A stretch of DNA of 64,000 bases from Paenibacillus sp. FJAT-29882 (GTDB lineage Bacteria; Bacillota; Bacilli; Bacillales; DSM-1321): NCBI RefSeq assembly GCF_001510645.1, contig NZ_LMVB01000001.1, forward strand, positions 2,800,981-2,864,980. Direction: 5' to 3'. Of this stretch, positions 8,677 to 49,480 are shown one piece after another; within the stretch, counting starts at the first letter, position 1, and each line of letters starts with the position of its first letter. The translations under genes were made by a program, and so were the position numbers. Below the pieces are notes generated by a model, which made no database searches, had not been told where the DNA came from, and saw only the letters and a program-made list of their open reading frames with translations.

Positions 8677-8694
8677 AATAGGTTTTTAAAACAC

Positions 8695-8723
8695 GAAAAA
8701 GGCCCCAAAATGGAGCCTTTTTC
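8695..8723. terminator. Bidirectional terminator between DUF3892 gene and csp
   Basis: GAAAAAGGCCCC and its near complement GGAGCCTTTTTC flank a short AT loop, with T-runs in both directions. It serves the convergent genes on each side. Confidence 0.8.
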
Positions 8724-8738
8724 TTATAGAATCATAAA

Positions 8739-8936
8739 TTATTTTTGAACGTTAGCAGCTTGTGGTCCGCGAGCGCCTTGTTCGATTTCGAAAGAAACTT
8801 CTTGACCTTCTTCAAGAGTTTTGAAACCTTCACCTTGGATAGCTGAGAAGTGTACGAATACATCGTCTTGACCTTCAACTTCGATGAAACCGAAACCTTT
8901 TTCTGCATTAAACCATTTTACTTTACCTTGTACCAT
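8739..8936 (-). CDS. Cold-shock protein (CspA/CspB family)
   Basis: A 65-residue OB-fold RNA/DNA chaperone. RNP1 is KGFGFIEV (residues 13-20) and RNP2 is VFVHFS (26-31), with the aromatic W8, F15, F17, F27 and F30 surface that stacks on nucleic acid. It prevents unwanted mRNA structure, especially after temperature downshift. The ribosome site GGAGGC lies just before ATG at 8936. Upstream is about 150-215 bp without a gene on the minus strand, long enough for the extended 5' leader that usually regulates csp genes post-transcriptionally. Confidence 0.96.
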
Positions 8937-9151
8937 GTATAGTGCCTCCTGTTTGGAAAAAATCCCTTTATTACTATTCTTGATCTAGGATAATGTCTTC
9001 AAGAGGAAACCATAAAGGTACTTCCTTCTATGAATCTTATTCCGAACAAAAATAATTGATTATAGTATACCATGTATTTTAGAAAAAAAACAAGGAAATT
9101 GCCCAAATAACAATCGACAATTCCTCCTATTTTTCTACAATTAAAAGGCTT

Positions 9152-9631
9152 TTACTTCCTTTTTCTGAAGCGTTCTTCCATTAAATAACGCTCTGCCTCA
9201 ACTGGGGATTCGAAGCATTCTTCAATATTAGTGCCTGAATAAATATTCCATAACAAGTCCTCATGAACTAAAGTCAGCTCCTGTTTGTCACGACCAATCC
9301 AGATCCCCTCAAGGTCCGCAAATTCATCTTCAGCTTCTTCCACTTCTTCAAACGGCTCTGCTAAATAAGCAAGGCTTGATGCAATGATTTTCTTCAACTC
9401 AGCCTCAGAAAAATCCCTAATATTCACGAATCCTTTAGGTCCTCTTTCTTTCTTAGGCAGATGTCTGGCAAACACAAATCCATTTCCATTCGGGTGTAGA
9501 TGCTGCACAACAATTTTTTTCTCATGCAAACTTTCTTCATAATGAAAATTCACTCTTCCAAGTGAAACATCTTTTCTCGTTAATTCTGGAAATGCTTCAA
9601 TAATCTTTAATTTCTCTTCAAAAGTTAACAA
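9152..9631 (-). CDS. Conserved hypothetical protein, 159 residues
   Basis: I do not recognise a named family. The protein starts MLTFEEKLKIIEAFPELTRK, has a basic central strand-rich part (VNFHYEESLHEKKIVVQHLH), an acidic linker near residues 93-105 (EEVEEAEDEFADLEG) and ends in the basic RFRKRK. It is soluble, without signal peptide or membrane segment. Codon use resembles its neighbours, and the length and domain-like alternation suggest a real gene. It is alone, upstream of csp in the same orientation but separated by 215 bp. No function is proposed. Confidence 0.7.
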   Translation of the reverse strand: MLTFEEKLKIIEAFPELTRKDVSLGRVNFHYEESLHEKKIVVQHLHPNGNGFVFARHLPKKERGPKGFVNIRDFSEAELKKIIASSLAYLAEPFEEVEEAEDEFADLEGIWIGRDKQELTLVHEDLLWNIYSGTNIEECFESPVEAERYLMEERFRKRK

Positions 9632-9720
9632 AATCGTTCCTCATTTCATTCATTCAATAGTGTTCGTCGATTATATCATAAATGAGGATGAAAGAATAAT
9701 TTTCTATAGAAAACAAACAT

Positions 9721-10163
9721 AAAGTGAAACTTCCATCAGTGGGGGGTTTTTCATCCCCCACTGATGGTTAGTCCCGTTCTACTGTCGCTAAATCTTCGAT
9801 AAAGCGACGTACGAACCCGATTCAACGAACTCAGACTAAATTAAATAGCCGCATCCTGCGGCAACGTCTGAGTGACCCACATCCTGTGGGCCTCAACTAA
9901 ACCGCTGAAGAGCATAGCGGTAGTCTCACTGTATCTCACCAATCGGGGATTTACTTCAATAAGCGAGGCTACTGCTCAGCCTCGACAAGCATAAGATGGA
10001 ATACGGCGTGGCGTAGTTTGCCACCGAGTATTACAGCTTATGAACTCGAGAGGCTAGGAGCCGCAGCTAGATTAGGCTGTTTATCCCCCACCTATTTATT
10101 TCTTGATTCTCCCTCAAAAATTGAGGTGGGGGATAAACAGCCTGTTAAACCGGGATAAACACC
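9721..10163 (+). repeat. Repeat family 3, copy A, interrupted by a hairpin-rich insert
   Basis: The left part (AAAGTGAAACTTCCATCAGT to GAACCCGATT, 9721-9822) and the right part (TTGAGGTGGGGG to CCGGGATAAA, 10121-10159) align to the contiguous family-3 copy at 49306-49480. The roughly 300 bp between them have no counterpart in that copy. The left part folds with AGTGGGG against CCCCACT. Confidence 0.7.
9816..10142 (+). ncRNA. Candidate structured RNA element (unnamed)
   Basis: A non-coding stretch with many nested and consecutive perfect stems: CCCGATT 9816-9822 with AATCGGG 9941-9947 closing a junction that contains ACTCAGAC/GTCTGAGT (9829-9836, 9866-9873) around GCCGC-ATCCT-GCGGC, then CCCAC-ATCCT-GTGGG (9876-9890), then ACCGCT/AGCGGT (9901-9921). 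Next follow CGAGGCT/AGCCTCG (9964-9984), CATAAG/CTTATG (9990-10042) enclosing AATAC/GTATT and GTGGC/GCCAC, and finally a 19-bp arm pair GGCTGTTTATCCCCCACCT (10075-10093) and its complement at 10124-10142. Two hairpins share the same ATCCT loop. No protein frame covers it. RNA status, strand and boundaries are inference. Confidence 0.5.
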
Positions 10164-10193
10164 ATCACATTCGACAACAAGATCATCTAATTT

Positions 10194-10485
10194 AAAGTGG
10201 AACTTCCATTAATGGGAGTATTGTCGCCTTTAAAACCAGTATAATAGTAGCGAAATTAATTTTTCTAAAAAATATAGAAGTCTGACATGTAGCTGACACA
10301 AACAAACGGTAAAGTAAGAGTATCAAGAAAAGCAATCAATGTTCTCACCGCAGAACTTAGTGAAAAAGGTAACGTACTATTTCAGATGAGAGTTTCGTAA
10401 TTTACCCGTTACTTCATCATTAAACAAACAATAACTATACATTGAATACTTAAACTATTAAAATTTCTAGAAGGAGTCGATTGAA
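10194..10485 (+). other. Leader region of the spx-like gene with repeat and coding remnants
   Basis: Opens with a 5' fragment of repeat family 3 (AAAGTGGAACTTCCATTAATG). At 10293-10400 the plus strand has 35 coding-looking codons (VRVSRKAINVLTAELSEKG) ending in TAA but without an ATG, GTG or TTG start, so it is probably the tail of a lost gene. The end of the region carries AGAAGGAGTCG, the ribosome site of the next gene. Confidence 0.4.
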
Positions 10486-37811: not shown

Positions 37812-38377
37812 AAGCACAGTCCCCTTTTCTATAACGTGGATAACATTTTGAAAATTCACACTTGGATATATATTTCCTTTTTACCGTACCACATTTGTAT
37901 AAAAAAAAGAAGCAGAAAAAGCGACTGTTCCAAAAGAAATGAACAAGCTCCGAAACGACTAAAAATCGTAGAAAACAAGGATGTTTTCATATTTACTTTT
38001 TTGAAATTTATGTAACTTACAATCATCTTATCCCCCCACTTCTTTAGACCTATTTAACTTACTATAATATCTATCACTACTTTCACACAAAAACCCATTC
38101 ATCCGTTTGCATTTACCCAGAATACTTATAGAACAATCGACAATTCTATTTGGAGTATCCAAATAAAGGGAAACTTCAATCGAGGGAGATTTCTTCATCC
38201 TCCACCTACGTTTCTTCGGTTCCTCTAAGTCTTGAGCTGGGGGTCTTGACTTTCCGTTAATACGGGATAAATCCACTTTCTAGCATTATGCAAATAACTT
38301 TTAGTAAGTACATTTATTTTACATAAGGGCTTTGGACATACTATAATTTTTATGAAAAAACAATAGGTGGAGAGAAG
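37812..38377. other. Region between pgcA and bdbC
   Basis: Divergent promoters presumably lie here. A family-3 repeat occupies 38164-38276. An open frame on the minus strand over 38028-38276 is only the repeat and is rejected. The right end has GGTGGAGAG for bdbC. Confidence 0.4.
38164..38276 (+). repeat. Repeat family 3, copy upstream of bdbC
   Basis: AAAGGGAAACTTCAATCGAG to CCGTTAATACGGGATAAA, with TCTAAGTCTTGAGCTGGGGG inside, corresponding to the 49306 copy but lacking its middle stem. Confidence 0.6.
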
Positions 38378-40950: not shown

Positions 40951-40978
40951 AACATCCATTAGCGTCTGCTTCCAACCC

Positions 40979-41055
40979 AACGATGAAAAGGTTCAGATTC
41001 TCAAATTGTATCACCTTATGAAGGTGGCGGTGCCCAGCTGGTTTTGCGAAGCCCC
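40979..41055 (+). repeat. Repeat family 2, copy B
   Basis: CGATGAAAAGGTTCAGATTC, TCAAATTGTATCACC, TATGAAGGTGGCGGTGCC; counterpart of the minus-strand copy at 788-862. It lies between the rluA-like gene and a strong terminator. Confidence 0.6.
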
Positions 41056-41062
41056 GCCCATT

Positions 41063-41106
41063 CCCCCCAAAAAAAGGATGCCGAATCGGCATCCTTTTTT
41101 TGGGGG
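41063..41106. terminator. Strong bidirectional terminator
   Basis: CCCCCC plus A7 then GGATGCCGA, mirrored by TCGGCATCC, T7 and GGGGG. It serves the rluA-like gene and the convergent glsB-like gene. Confidence 0.9.
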
Positions 41107-48511: not shown

Positions 48512-49303
48512 ATGGCAGATGAATTTGTAAGCAAATCCTTAGATGAAATCCGTTTCTGGTCAAGGATTATGAAAGAGCACTCCTTATTTTTAAGTTTGGG
48601 TTTCAGTTCAGATGATACTACATTAATTGATGAAGCCAAGCAATTCATCACGGTTTTTGAAAGAATTGAGGAGCAATTAAATCGGTTTTCCCCTAGTTCA
48701 GATCCACAGCAGGTTCAAGCGTTTAACAATCAAGTGTATCAATCCGTGGCGTCTATTTGGGCTTATAAAAGAAAGGTATTGGGTCTAACTTTACGATGTG
48801 AGGTGCTCTCAAATAATTACCCATTGTTGATTGATCATACGAGTCGAGAAGCTGCTTATTTCGCGAATCGATTGAAAGAGCTCAATGAAGGAAAACTTGT
48901 GCCTTTGCCTGAGGCGATTATTCAAGAAAATGTTTTCTTCCTTAAAATTATGGCGGATCACGCCAAGTTTATCGGGCATCTTTTAGATCCGACCGAAAGA
49001 AAACTAGTCGACCAAGCACGAGAATTTAGTCATGATTTTGATCAACTTCTGTACCAAGCAATCGACTTGGAGCATATGAGACCAGAATCCGAGACGCCTG
49101 CCCTTCTAGACCAATTTTTAGATCAAAACAGAGTTTCCGTCGTTTCACTAAGGGACTTCAAGAAAACAGCGCGAGATTTAATCGAAGCATGCCGGATCAA
49201 GAGTAATATTCACCCTCTTCTAGCTGATCATGTATTTAGGGAAGCAGAAAGGTTTATTGAAATTATCGATATGTTTGAAGGACATCTTCAAAATAGTCAT
49301 TGA
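48512..49303 (+). CDS. DUF2935 domain protein
   Basis: A 263-residue, all-helical protein with two similar halves: DEIRFWSRIMKEHSLFLSLG at the start and IIQENVFFLKIMADHAKFIG near residue 130, each with E and H residues (EHSLF, DHAKF, DHTSREA, DHVFREA) that suggest a four-helix metal-binding bundle. This is the DUF2935 family of Bacilli and Clostridia. Role unknown. AAGAGGAGGG precedes the ATG. A family-3 repeat begins right after the stop. Confidence 0.9.
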   Translation: MADEFVSKSLDEIRFWSRIMKEHSLFLSLGFSSDDTTLIDEAKQFITVFERIEEQLNRFSPSSDPQQVQAFNNQVYQSVASIWAYKRKVLGLTLRCEVLSNNYPLLIDHTSREAAYFANRLKELNEGKLVPLPEAIIQENVFFLKIMADHAKFIGHLLDPTERKLVDQAREFSHDFDQLLYQAIDLEHMRPESETPALLDQFLDQNRVSVVSLRDFKKTARDLIEACRIKSNIHPLLADHVFREAERFIEIIDMFEGHLQNSH

Positions 49304-49305
49304 TA

Positions 49306-49480
49306 AAGTGAAACTTCAATCAGTGGGGTTTTCTTCATCCCCACTGATTGTTAGCCCCGTTCTAGTGTCGCTAAATCTTCGATAAAGCGACACTACGAAC
49401 CCGATTGGTTCAACCTACGCTTCTTCGATTCCTCTAAGCCTTGAGGTGGGGGTCTTACTGCCTGTTAATGCCGGATAAAA
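49306..49480 (+). repeat. Repeat family 3, full-length copy
   Basis: The most complete copy: AAAGTGAAACTTCAATCAGT, hairpin CAGTGGGG/CCCCACTG, second hairpin AGTGTCGCT/AGCGACACT, CCCGATTGGTTCAACC, TCTAAGCCTTGAGGTGGGGG and CCTGTTAATGCCGGATAAA. It serves as the reference for the other copies. Confidence 0.75.

Follow-up and report, generated by a model that had tools for sequence, protein, structure and literature searches.

A Hairpin-Rich Block of Paenibacillus sp. FJAT-29882 Is Probably Carried by a bcr1-like Element of Recent Insertion

The hairpin-dense block at positions 9816–10142 of the window (the whole stretch of 64,000 nucleotides of Paenibacillus sp. FJAT-29882 DNA that was analysed) is best interpreted as DNA carried by a bcr1-like element of recent insertion, rather than as a new RNA gene. 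The carrier, designated family A, very probably inserted at the pentanucleotide ATAAA a short time ago, bringing the block along as its cargo, and it is in all likelihood a non-autonomous insertion element with an ATAAA target and an interior composed of exchangeable hairpin cassettes. Insertion is precise at two sites of the window, the ends of the element carry ATAAA, the copy number is high and one of the cassettes occurs in several carriers.

Structure of the Block and of the Surrounding Element

The hairpins of 9816–10142 are real and lie far above chance. The plus strand folded at −129.8 kcal/mol relative to a mean of −87.2 kcal/mol for 100 dinucleotide shuffles (z −8.41), the minus strand gave a z of −7.67 with the same number of shuffles, and none of the 100 shuffles per strand folded as well, which bears out the hairpin density beyond random DNA claimed in the earlier note. 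The two stems described there as sharing an ATCCT loop were found at 9848–9862 and 9876–9890. The motifs CCCGATT (9816) and AATCGGG (9941), thought to close the block, are present, but they could close just 9816–9947 and were paired in the minus-strand fold while unpaired in the plus-strand minimum-energy fold. The inverted pair at the end of the block is also there, with arms of 20 bp (10074–10093 and 10124–10143) instead of the 19 bp given, and it forms part of the right end of the element core. As had been stated, no protein appears to be encoded: ORFs of at least 80 aa were absent between 9632 and 10485, and the longest one within 9719–10159 had 46 aa.

Although the block had been taken as the unit, a close relative with an empty site (genome G011) marks 9719–10159 as the inserted DNA, i.e., the whole family-A element with both ATAAA copies, the ends of which are sharp in the copies of the same genome. 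All its parts are on the plus strand. The two ATAAA sequences, at 9719–9723 (target or direct repeat) and 10155–10159 (direct repeat), were placed by the empty-site alignment. The left one is followed by a left-end hairpin detected in an inverted-repeat search (9733–9767, with 13-bp arms CCATCAGTGGGGG and CCCCCACTGATGG) and by an extra hairpin, H (9784–9808, GTCGCT/AGCGAC), recognised from the sequence and by alignment and present also in the copy at 49303. Then come a Bacillaceae-1 RNA cassette (9820–9890), consisting of two RUCCU-loop hairpins, one of them within an outer stem, and a small CCGCT/AGCGG hairpin read from the sequence (9902–9920). A module resembling repeat family D (9965–10063; pattern match at 10045 with up to 4 substitutions in 19 allowed) comprises a GAGGCT/AGCCTC hairpin, a GACAAGCATAAG..CTTATG stem and CTCGAGAGGCTAGGAGCCG, and these motifs were also read in the family-D copies L247, L249, L253 and L255. 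The right-end hairpin (10074–10143), with its perfect arms, belongs to the element core and occurs in core copies of other species, among them a 158-bp core copy of Peribacillus huizhouensis.

Further repeats and a known RNA element were noticed in the window. A cspA thermoregulator was reported by Rfam at 8692–9057 on the minus strand (94.4 bits). A third repeat type of about 110–120 bp (CACCTTCATTAGGTGATGCAATTTGAGAACCTGAACC...), typed by eye, is represented at ~783–889 and, reversed, at ~40953–41068; G011 lacks the first copy at the corresponding place, and G010 the second.

Precise Insertion at ATAAA

The left flank of the element (9100–9718) matched 33 of the 36 genomes of the genus, the FJAT-29882 genome included. 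In G011 (locus L289), where this flank is 93% identical to the window, the two flanks run on directly as AAACAAAC-ATAAA-CACCATCA with a single ATAAA, and the window has 436 extra bases. A second family-A copy (38163–38271, plus strand) showed the same arrangement, with 104 extra bases where the relative has one ATAAA. A total of 10 left-end matches were found in the window, with a clean empty site for just these two. A deletion in the relative rather than an insertion in the window is formally possible; it would require precise deletion twice over, with one ATAAA left behind each time.

Older traces of the family were seen around the same site. A decayed mini copy stands beside the new insertion (10192–10245, plus strand, end approximate), as read from the alignment with G011, which has a clearer form of it at the same place, and in G010 this intergenic region was read as holding a decayed copy of greater age. 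The plus-strand copy at 49303–49479 (given earlier as starting at 49306) had been regarded as the uninterrupted form of the repeat. The alignment shows instead a deletion form that keeps the H hairpin, hence one hairpin more than the core, and that has lost most of the 5' arm of its right-end hairpin.

In the FJAT-29882 genome, family-A copies open with ATAAA-GTGAAACTTC and then a hairpin, and they close with a second hairpin and then GTTAANNCGGG-ATAAA. ATAAA stood on both sides of 35 of the 44 copies with both ends and one side differed in the other nine, counts that are biased toward ATAAA because the left-end search tolerated two substitutions in 15. Outside ATAAA, the flanks had no consensus (50 left, 44 right). 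Tandem copies have one ATAAA in common (L099, L117; L146, L192), which is what the insertion of one copy into the ATAAA end of another would produce.

The mechanism that we propose is as follows. The element would insert at ATAAA (TTTAT on the other strand) and leave ATAAA on both sides, and the end hairpins beside the cut site would presumably serve as recognition sites of an enzyme supplied in trans. Cassettes, in this copy the Bacillaceae-1 pair and the family-D-like module, would be picked up between the end hairpins and may themselves move independently or by recombination. These cassettes make up most of the block 9816–10142.

Copy Number and Distribution of Family A

The FJAT-29882 genome (5.32 Mb, 21 contigs) contained at least 75 blastn pieces matching 9720–10260 of the window, as judged from the best 40 of 279 candidates scored. 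Together with the matches to the Rfam model of Bacillaceae-1 (RF01690), these pieces defined 60 places, compared as 59 stretches, in which family-A copies were 135–520 bp long. A 15-mer of the left end gave 398 matches at up to two mismatches (36 for a reversed control) and 275 at up to one mismatch (3 for the control), and the left end is present about 270–360 times.

Across the 36 genomes of the genus, the number of left ends ranged from 0 to 350. The highest counts were found in G010 (350), FJAT-29882 (275), G011 (149), G003 (71) and G002 (41), and the remaining 31 genomes had at most 17, many of them near the control level. Beyond the genus, a 26-base left-end pattern occurred in at least 111 stretches of named genomes. 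Among the 80 stretches listed, nearly all came from Bacillales, including Niallia, Cytobacillus, Oceanobacillus, Lysinibacillus, Sporosarcina, Psychrobacillus, Metabacillus, Ornithinibacillus, Natronobacillus, Terrilactibacillus and Priestia, besides others and one Modestobacter contig. The pattern had no match in the phage records searched; two plasmid searches matched 3 and 6 records, and a B. cereus-group plasmid was absent among them.

Family-A end sequences were also present in a Modestobacter sp. contig of 4601 bp (L163) and in the Klebsiella grimontii plasmid pNY3A (L349, positions 221561–221624). Our guess is contamination or a mislabelled assembly for these two records.

Core Form and Variable Interior

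Left ends were paired with right ends in the window, in the 80 loci from named genomes and in 11 syntenic stretches. After the removal of 10 artefacts (5 bp, tandem junctions) from 94 pairs, 84 real pairs were left, 79 of which spanned no more than 650 bp, with 150–170 bp being the commonest class (30 of these 79). Four of the five longer pairs enclose ordinary genes and the fifth, in the window, reflects a missed right end. A further 60 left ends in the paired loci had no right end by the pattern used; these are truncated or diverged copies.

The family-A core of about 155 bp consists of the left hairpin, TTAGTTGAACCAATCGGGCTTTTAC and the right hairpin. In very short forms, about 54 bp long, the two ends are joined, perhaps through deletion between GTGGGGG repeats. 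To the core, the window copy adds the H hairpin, the Bacillaceae-1 pair, the CCGCT hairpin and the GACAAGCATAAG..CTTATG..CTCGAGAGGCTAG module. Module sets differed widely among the 44 copies of the FJAT-29882 genome, a sample in which module-poor copies are under-represented because the copies were found through similarity to the window copy.

No gene common to family-A copies was found. Reading frames of 80–108 aa occurred in 2 of the 44 copies and in three other copies (L148, L193, L205), and they were unlike one another, save the two from the FJAT-29882 genome, which share hairpin DNA. Reading frames of this length look like translated hairpin DNA. With two clean empty sites, ATAAA on both sides, many copies and no shared gene found, the nonautonomous transposon that the earlier note had named as one possibility is supported.

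Search for the Mobilising Enzyme

Y1 transposase genes were detected in 15 of the 36 genus genomes, among them each of the five that have 41 or more left ends, and TnpB in 17 of the 36; no TnpB match was found in G010, the genus genome richest in left ends. A total of 45 Y1/TnpB loci were fetched (15 of 38 Y1 places and 30 of 71 TnpB places) and in none of them was the gene bracketed by family-A ends, with stray family-A matches in three (L283, L340, L348). Neither these loci nor the 84 end pairs revealed an autonomous parent with the same ends.

The Y1 gene of the FJAT-29882 genome (L061, L101), covered in addition to these 15 Y1 places, is RAYT-like and flanked by GGGGTCAGACCCC repeats. RAYT-like Y1 genes with GGGGTCAGACCCC palindromes on both sides were seen in five loci from several genomes of the genus (L101, L273, L275, L281, L284), which represents a clear RAYT-REP pairing in Bacillales; a GGGGTCAGTCCCC variant was present in L280. 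The RAYT/IS200 transposase was considered as the driver of family A and rejected, since the RAYT-like genes in these five loci are flanked by their own palindromes and not by family-A ends.

The origin of family A from an IS200/IS605-type (Y1) element, with ATAAA/TTTAT as the cleavage site and the subterminal hairpins read as single-stranded DNA, is conceivable but doubtful, and it is one candidate mechanism for the insertion, not an alternative to it. It is consistent with a subterminal hairpin at each end, with the fixed pentanucleotide on both sides and with the lack of terminal inverted repeats. In the available text of PMC10640517, TTTAT is likewise given for the left ends of solo-tnpB elements of Sulfolobus islandicus. 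The co-occurrence of Y1 genes with the highest left-end counts also points this way, although it may reflect shared ancestry. The unbracketed genes of the 45 loci argue against such an origin, as do the GGGGTCAGACCCC repeats around the RAYT-like gene of FJAT-29882, flanked as in other species, and the weak orientation of copies relative to GC skew. With skew taken as a proxy, 34 of 91 copies in the named loci lay on the strand of positive skew (sign test p 0.02, Wilcoxon p 0.07), and the corresponding figures were 24 of 54 in the FJAT-29882 genome (p 0.50), 5 of 13 in the syntenic stretches and 3 of 6 in the window.

Bacillaceae-1 Hairpins in Several Carriers

The only match above the cut-off in the proposed Rfam check of the block was RF01690 at 9820–9890 on the plus strand (cmscan, 69.5 bits; gathering cut-off 35; model positions 1–67 of 67). 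The suggestion of a candidate structured RNA thus holds in so far as an RNA-like part exists; that part, raised in the earlier note as possibly an undescribed ncRNA, is already described as the Bacillaceae-1 family.

The FJAT-29882 genome had 45 RF01690 matches, 44 of them above the cut-off. A covariance model, R1, built from 21 Bacillaceae-1 copies found 45 copies in the compared stretches of this genome, a set that differs slightly from the 45 RF01690 matches. Family A carried 29 of the 45 (27 by motif and 2 by reading within long copies), family B 14 and family D 2. Family B has ends with GTTCAAAAAGTCCGGTAAAAA, which gave 84 matches in the FJAT-29882 genome and 1 in the control. By eye, its copies (e.g., L076, L078, L084) have imperfect inverted ends and are MITE-like, often holding Bacillaceae-1.

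In 94 other loci, 42 Bacillaceae-1 matches were found, 25 in family A and 9 in family D by motif; of the other eight, four lay near rRNA ends and four were unassigned by motif and D-like by eye. These shares are not estimates, since most of the loci had been selected with the left-end pattern or with RF01690. In L256, the hairpins at 1501–1566 stand 10 bases before a 16S gene and in L252, at 1501–1567, about 120 bases after a 5S gene, in both cases on the rRNA strand and with the rRNA confirmed by Rfam. The two cassettes of L248 were placed near 5S ends by an 18-base 5S-end motif alone, with no 5S reported by Rfam. The rRNA neighbourhood of L256 and L252 is possibly a setting where Bacillaceae-1 acts as RNA.

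The position of the cassette in family A varied as well. Outside the FJAT-29882 genome, three arrangements were seen by eye: the cassette lay oppositely oriented in the loop of the left hairpin (Marseille-Q3522, Cytobacillus citreus, Terrilactibacillus), oppositely oriented behind that hairpin (Cytobacillus, Fredinandcohnia and others) or behind it in the same orientation (B. chungangensis, Sporosarcina). Within the genus, its number ranged from 0 to 88 per genome and was uncoupled from that of left ends. The numbers of left ends and cassettes were 71 and 0 in G003, 41 and 0 in G002, 5 and 88 in G015, 17 and 85 in G005 and 2 and 32 in G009, the cassettes being counted with stricter filters; FJAT-29882, G010 and G011 had many of both. 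With several positions, both orientations and several carriers, the two Bacillaceae-1 hairpins act together as a cassette that can be exchanged.

In five distinct loci (L148, L174, L193, L253, L272), another small insert, containing TCGTGCGA, sits in a TCCT loop of the Bacillaceae-1 hairpins, with TCCT at both borders; four or five of five flanking bases were paired in four of these loci. The pattern used demanded TCCT, and the five loci are not a survey. A bolder and rather speculative proposal, which we hold to be less probable than not, is that Bacillaceae-1 as such might be a mobile DNA hairpin cassette and not an independent small-RNA gene. It would enter hairpin repeats, often in or next to their loops, and its TCCT loops would in turn take inserts, so that several Bacillales repeat families would make up a nested exchange system with stems held in perfect pairing as DNA. 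As far as the accessible text of the open-licence literature goes, no description of Bacillaceae-1 within mobile repeats was found.

Conservation of Stems and Strand Signals

The covariation check of the cassette stems gave a clear signal. In 40 distinct rows from the other loci, 125 cells were changed on both sides of a pair compared with 40.0 in shuffles, in an alignment that was fitted to the structure, and sliding the partner destroyed the pairing. The seed of 21 rows, which were chosen for pairing, had 94.6% of cells paired, 66 double-sided changes and 0 G-U. In the model-based alignments (38 and 40 distinct rows, 1321 cells), G-U accounted for 19 cells (1.4%) and A-C for 44 (3.3%); without the three outermost pairs, 16 G-T and 21 A-C cells of the cassette were left. 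An earlier count in 56 cassettes selected by a regular expression gave 29 A-C and 5 G-T, the selection having demanded paired stems and the outer stem being offset-fitted. The left-end hairpin showed 27 G-T and 33 A-C in 1416 cells (177 of 270 distinct left ends). In the single control set, 34 tRNAs of the fetched loci, G-U made up 32 of 436 cells (7.3%), and the ARAGORN notation may omit A-C cells.

The choice of a strand by G-U versus A-C pairs was tried for Bacillaceae-1 and abandoned, as neither strand was favoured (16 versus 21 inner pairs). Neither strand resembles a typical selected RNA, and the pairing pattern fits the upkeep of DNA hairpins or arm-to-arm correction without proving either. 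For the 'RNA-based mobile element' of the earlier note, no evidence was obtained: almost every stem substitution was Watson-Crick, a pattern that lends no support to an RNA intermediate while leaving room for one.

A functional Bacillaceae-1 ncRNA gene at this locus, with the surrounding repeat being incidental, is unlikely. The RF01690 score, the strong covariation, the same-strand cassettes beside rRNA genes (L256, L252), the two near the 5S-end motifs of L248 and two terminator-like sites inside the element (2 found versus 0.8 expected, for the whole scanned region) speak in its favour. However, the window copy sits in an element missing from a close relative, the copies of the same genome are distributed among three repeat families and their number is anything from none to dozens within the genus. 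The G-U content of the stems, lower than that of A-C and far below the tRNA value, also speaks against it, and the promoter check yielded no promoter-like match inside the element.

Two other readings are highly improbable. An omega-like (TnpB guide) RNA or a remnant of a TnpB element, raised in the earlier note as an orphan omega-like RNA, would agree with structured DNA next to a TTTAT-type flank, but the 30 fetched TnpB loci lacked family-A ends around the gene, G010 combines many copies with the absence of a TnpB match and the Rfam scan at E ≤ 1 gave, besides Bacillaceae-1, low-scoring matches far below the cut-off and no guide-RNA family. A decoy binding CsrA through minus-strand loops is just as hard to credit: both loops of the window copy read CAGGAUG on the minus strand (CAGGACG in one loop of many copies), resembling the site consensus RUACARGGAUGU with GGA in loops, as far as given in the accessible text of PMC7652899 and PMC3856055, but next to rRNA genes the rRNA strand is the opposite one, wobble pairs had no strand preference once the three outermost pairs were omitted, and csrA, present in 35 of 36 genomes regardless of cassette number, was uninformative.

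Relation to Known Repeats and Significance

Judged by description, the closest known kind of repeat appears to be the bcr1 type (group A, bcr1–bcr3), a likeness and not a membership. The available text of PMC6542083 and PMC3446304 describes bcr1–bcr3 of the B. cereus group as MITE-like and TTTAT-linked, with up to 130 copies of bcr1, and that of PMC6542083 states that bcr repeats are specific to this group and absent from other species. Family A is alike in its TTTAT/ATAAA ends and in a core length near 150–170 bp. It differs by its presence in many other Bacillales genera among the matches listed and by the gain of cassettes, which extends copies up to 520 bp.

Family A also resembles MITEs, of which RUP, NEMIS, ERIC and EFAR are named in the accessible part of PMC3733652, in being short and structured, with direct-repeat flanks and no shared gene, and its two empty sites hold a single copy of the direct repeat. 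It differs in having a fixed pentanucleotide target and in that no parent transposon was found. Inside ATAAA, its ends read GTGAAACTTC and, as the reverse complement, CCCGGTTTAA, i.e., terminal inverted repeats are absent, and therefore family A is not a standard MITE. The REP/REPIN repeats with their RAYT, as described in the available portion of PMC3116915, are similarly palindromic, non-autonomous and dispersed in hundreds, whereas the five RAYT-like loci of the genus are flanked by GGGGTCAGACCCC and not by family-A ends.

Bacillaceae-1 is listed in PMC2864571 and eight such structures were counted in B. subtilis (PMC8208703), according to the accessible text of both. The sequence at 9820–9890 agrees with the Rfam family in its full length and on the Rfam strand and differs in being a cassette within mobile repeats.

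Modular repeats with variable inner modules occur elsewhere, as in the BOX elements of Streptococcus pneumoniae. By description, family A shares this modularity; the host is different and its modules are common to unrelated repeat families. The sharing of one hairpin cassette among several unrelated repeat families is the unusual part of the finding.

Wherever a catalogued RNA family turns up, it is likely to be taken for a small-RNA gene. The Bacillaceae-1 copies of FJAT-29882 lie in elements that are mobile or repeated; annotation and functional work on this family should therefore weigh the carrier. With several hundred copies and insertions that differ between close species, a bcr1-like element beyond the B. 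cereus group offers a system for seeking the missing enzyme of such repeats, and the exchange of cassettes between unrelated repeats is both unusual and testable.
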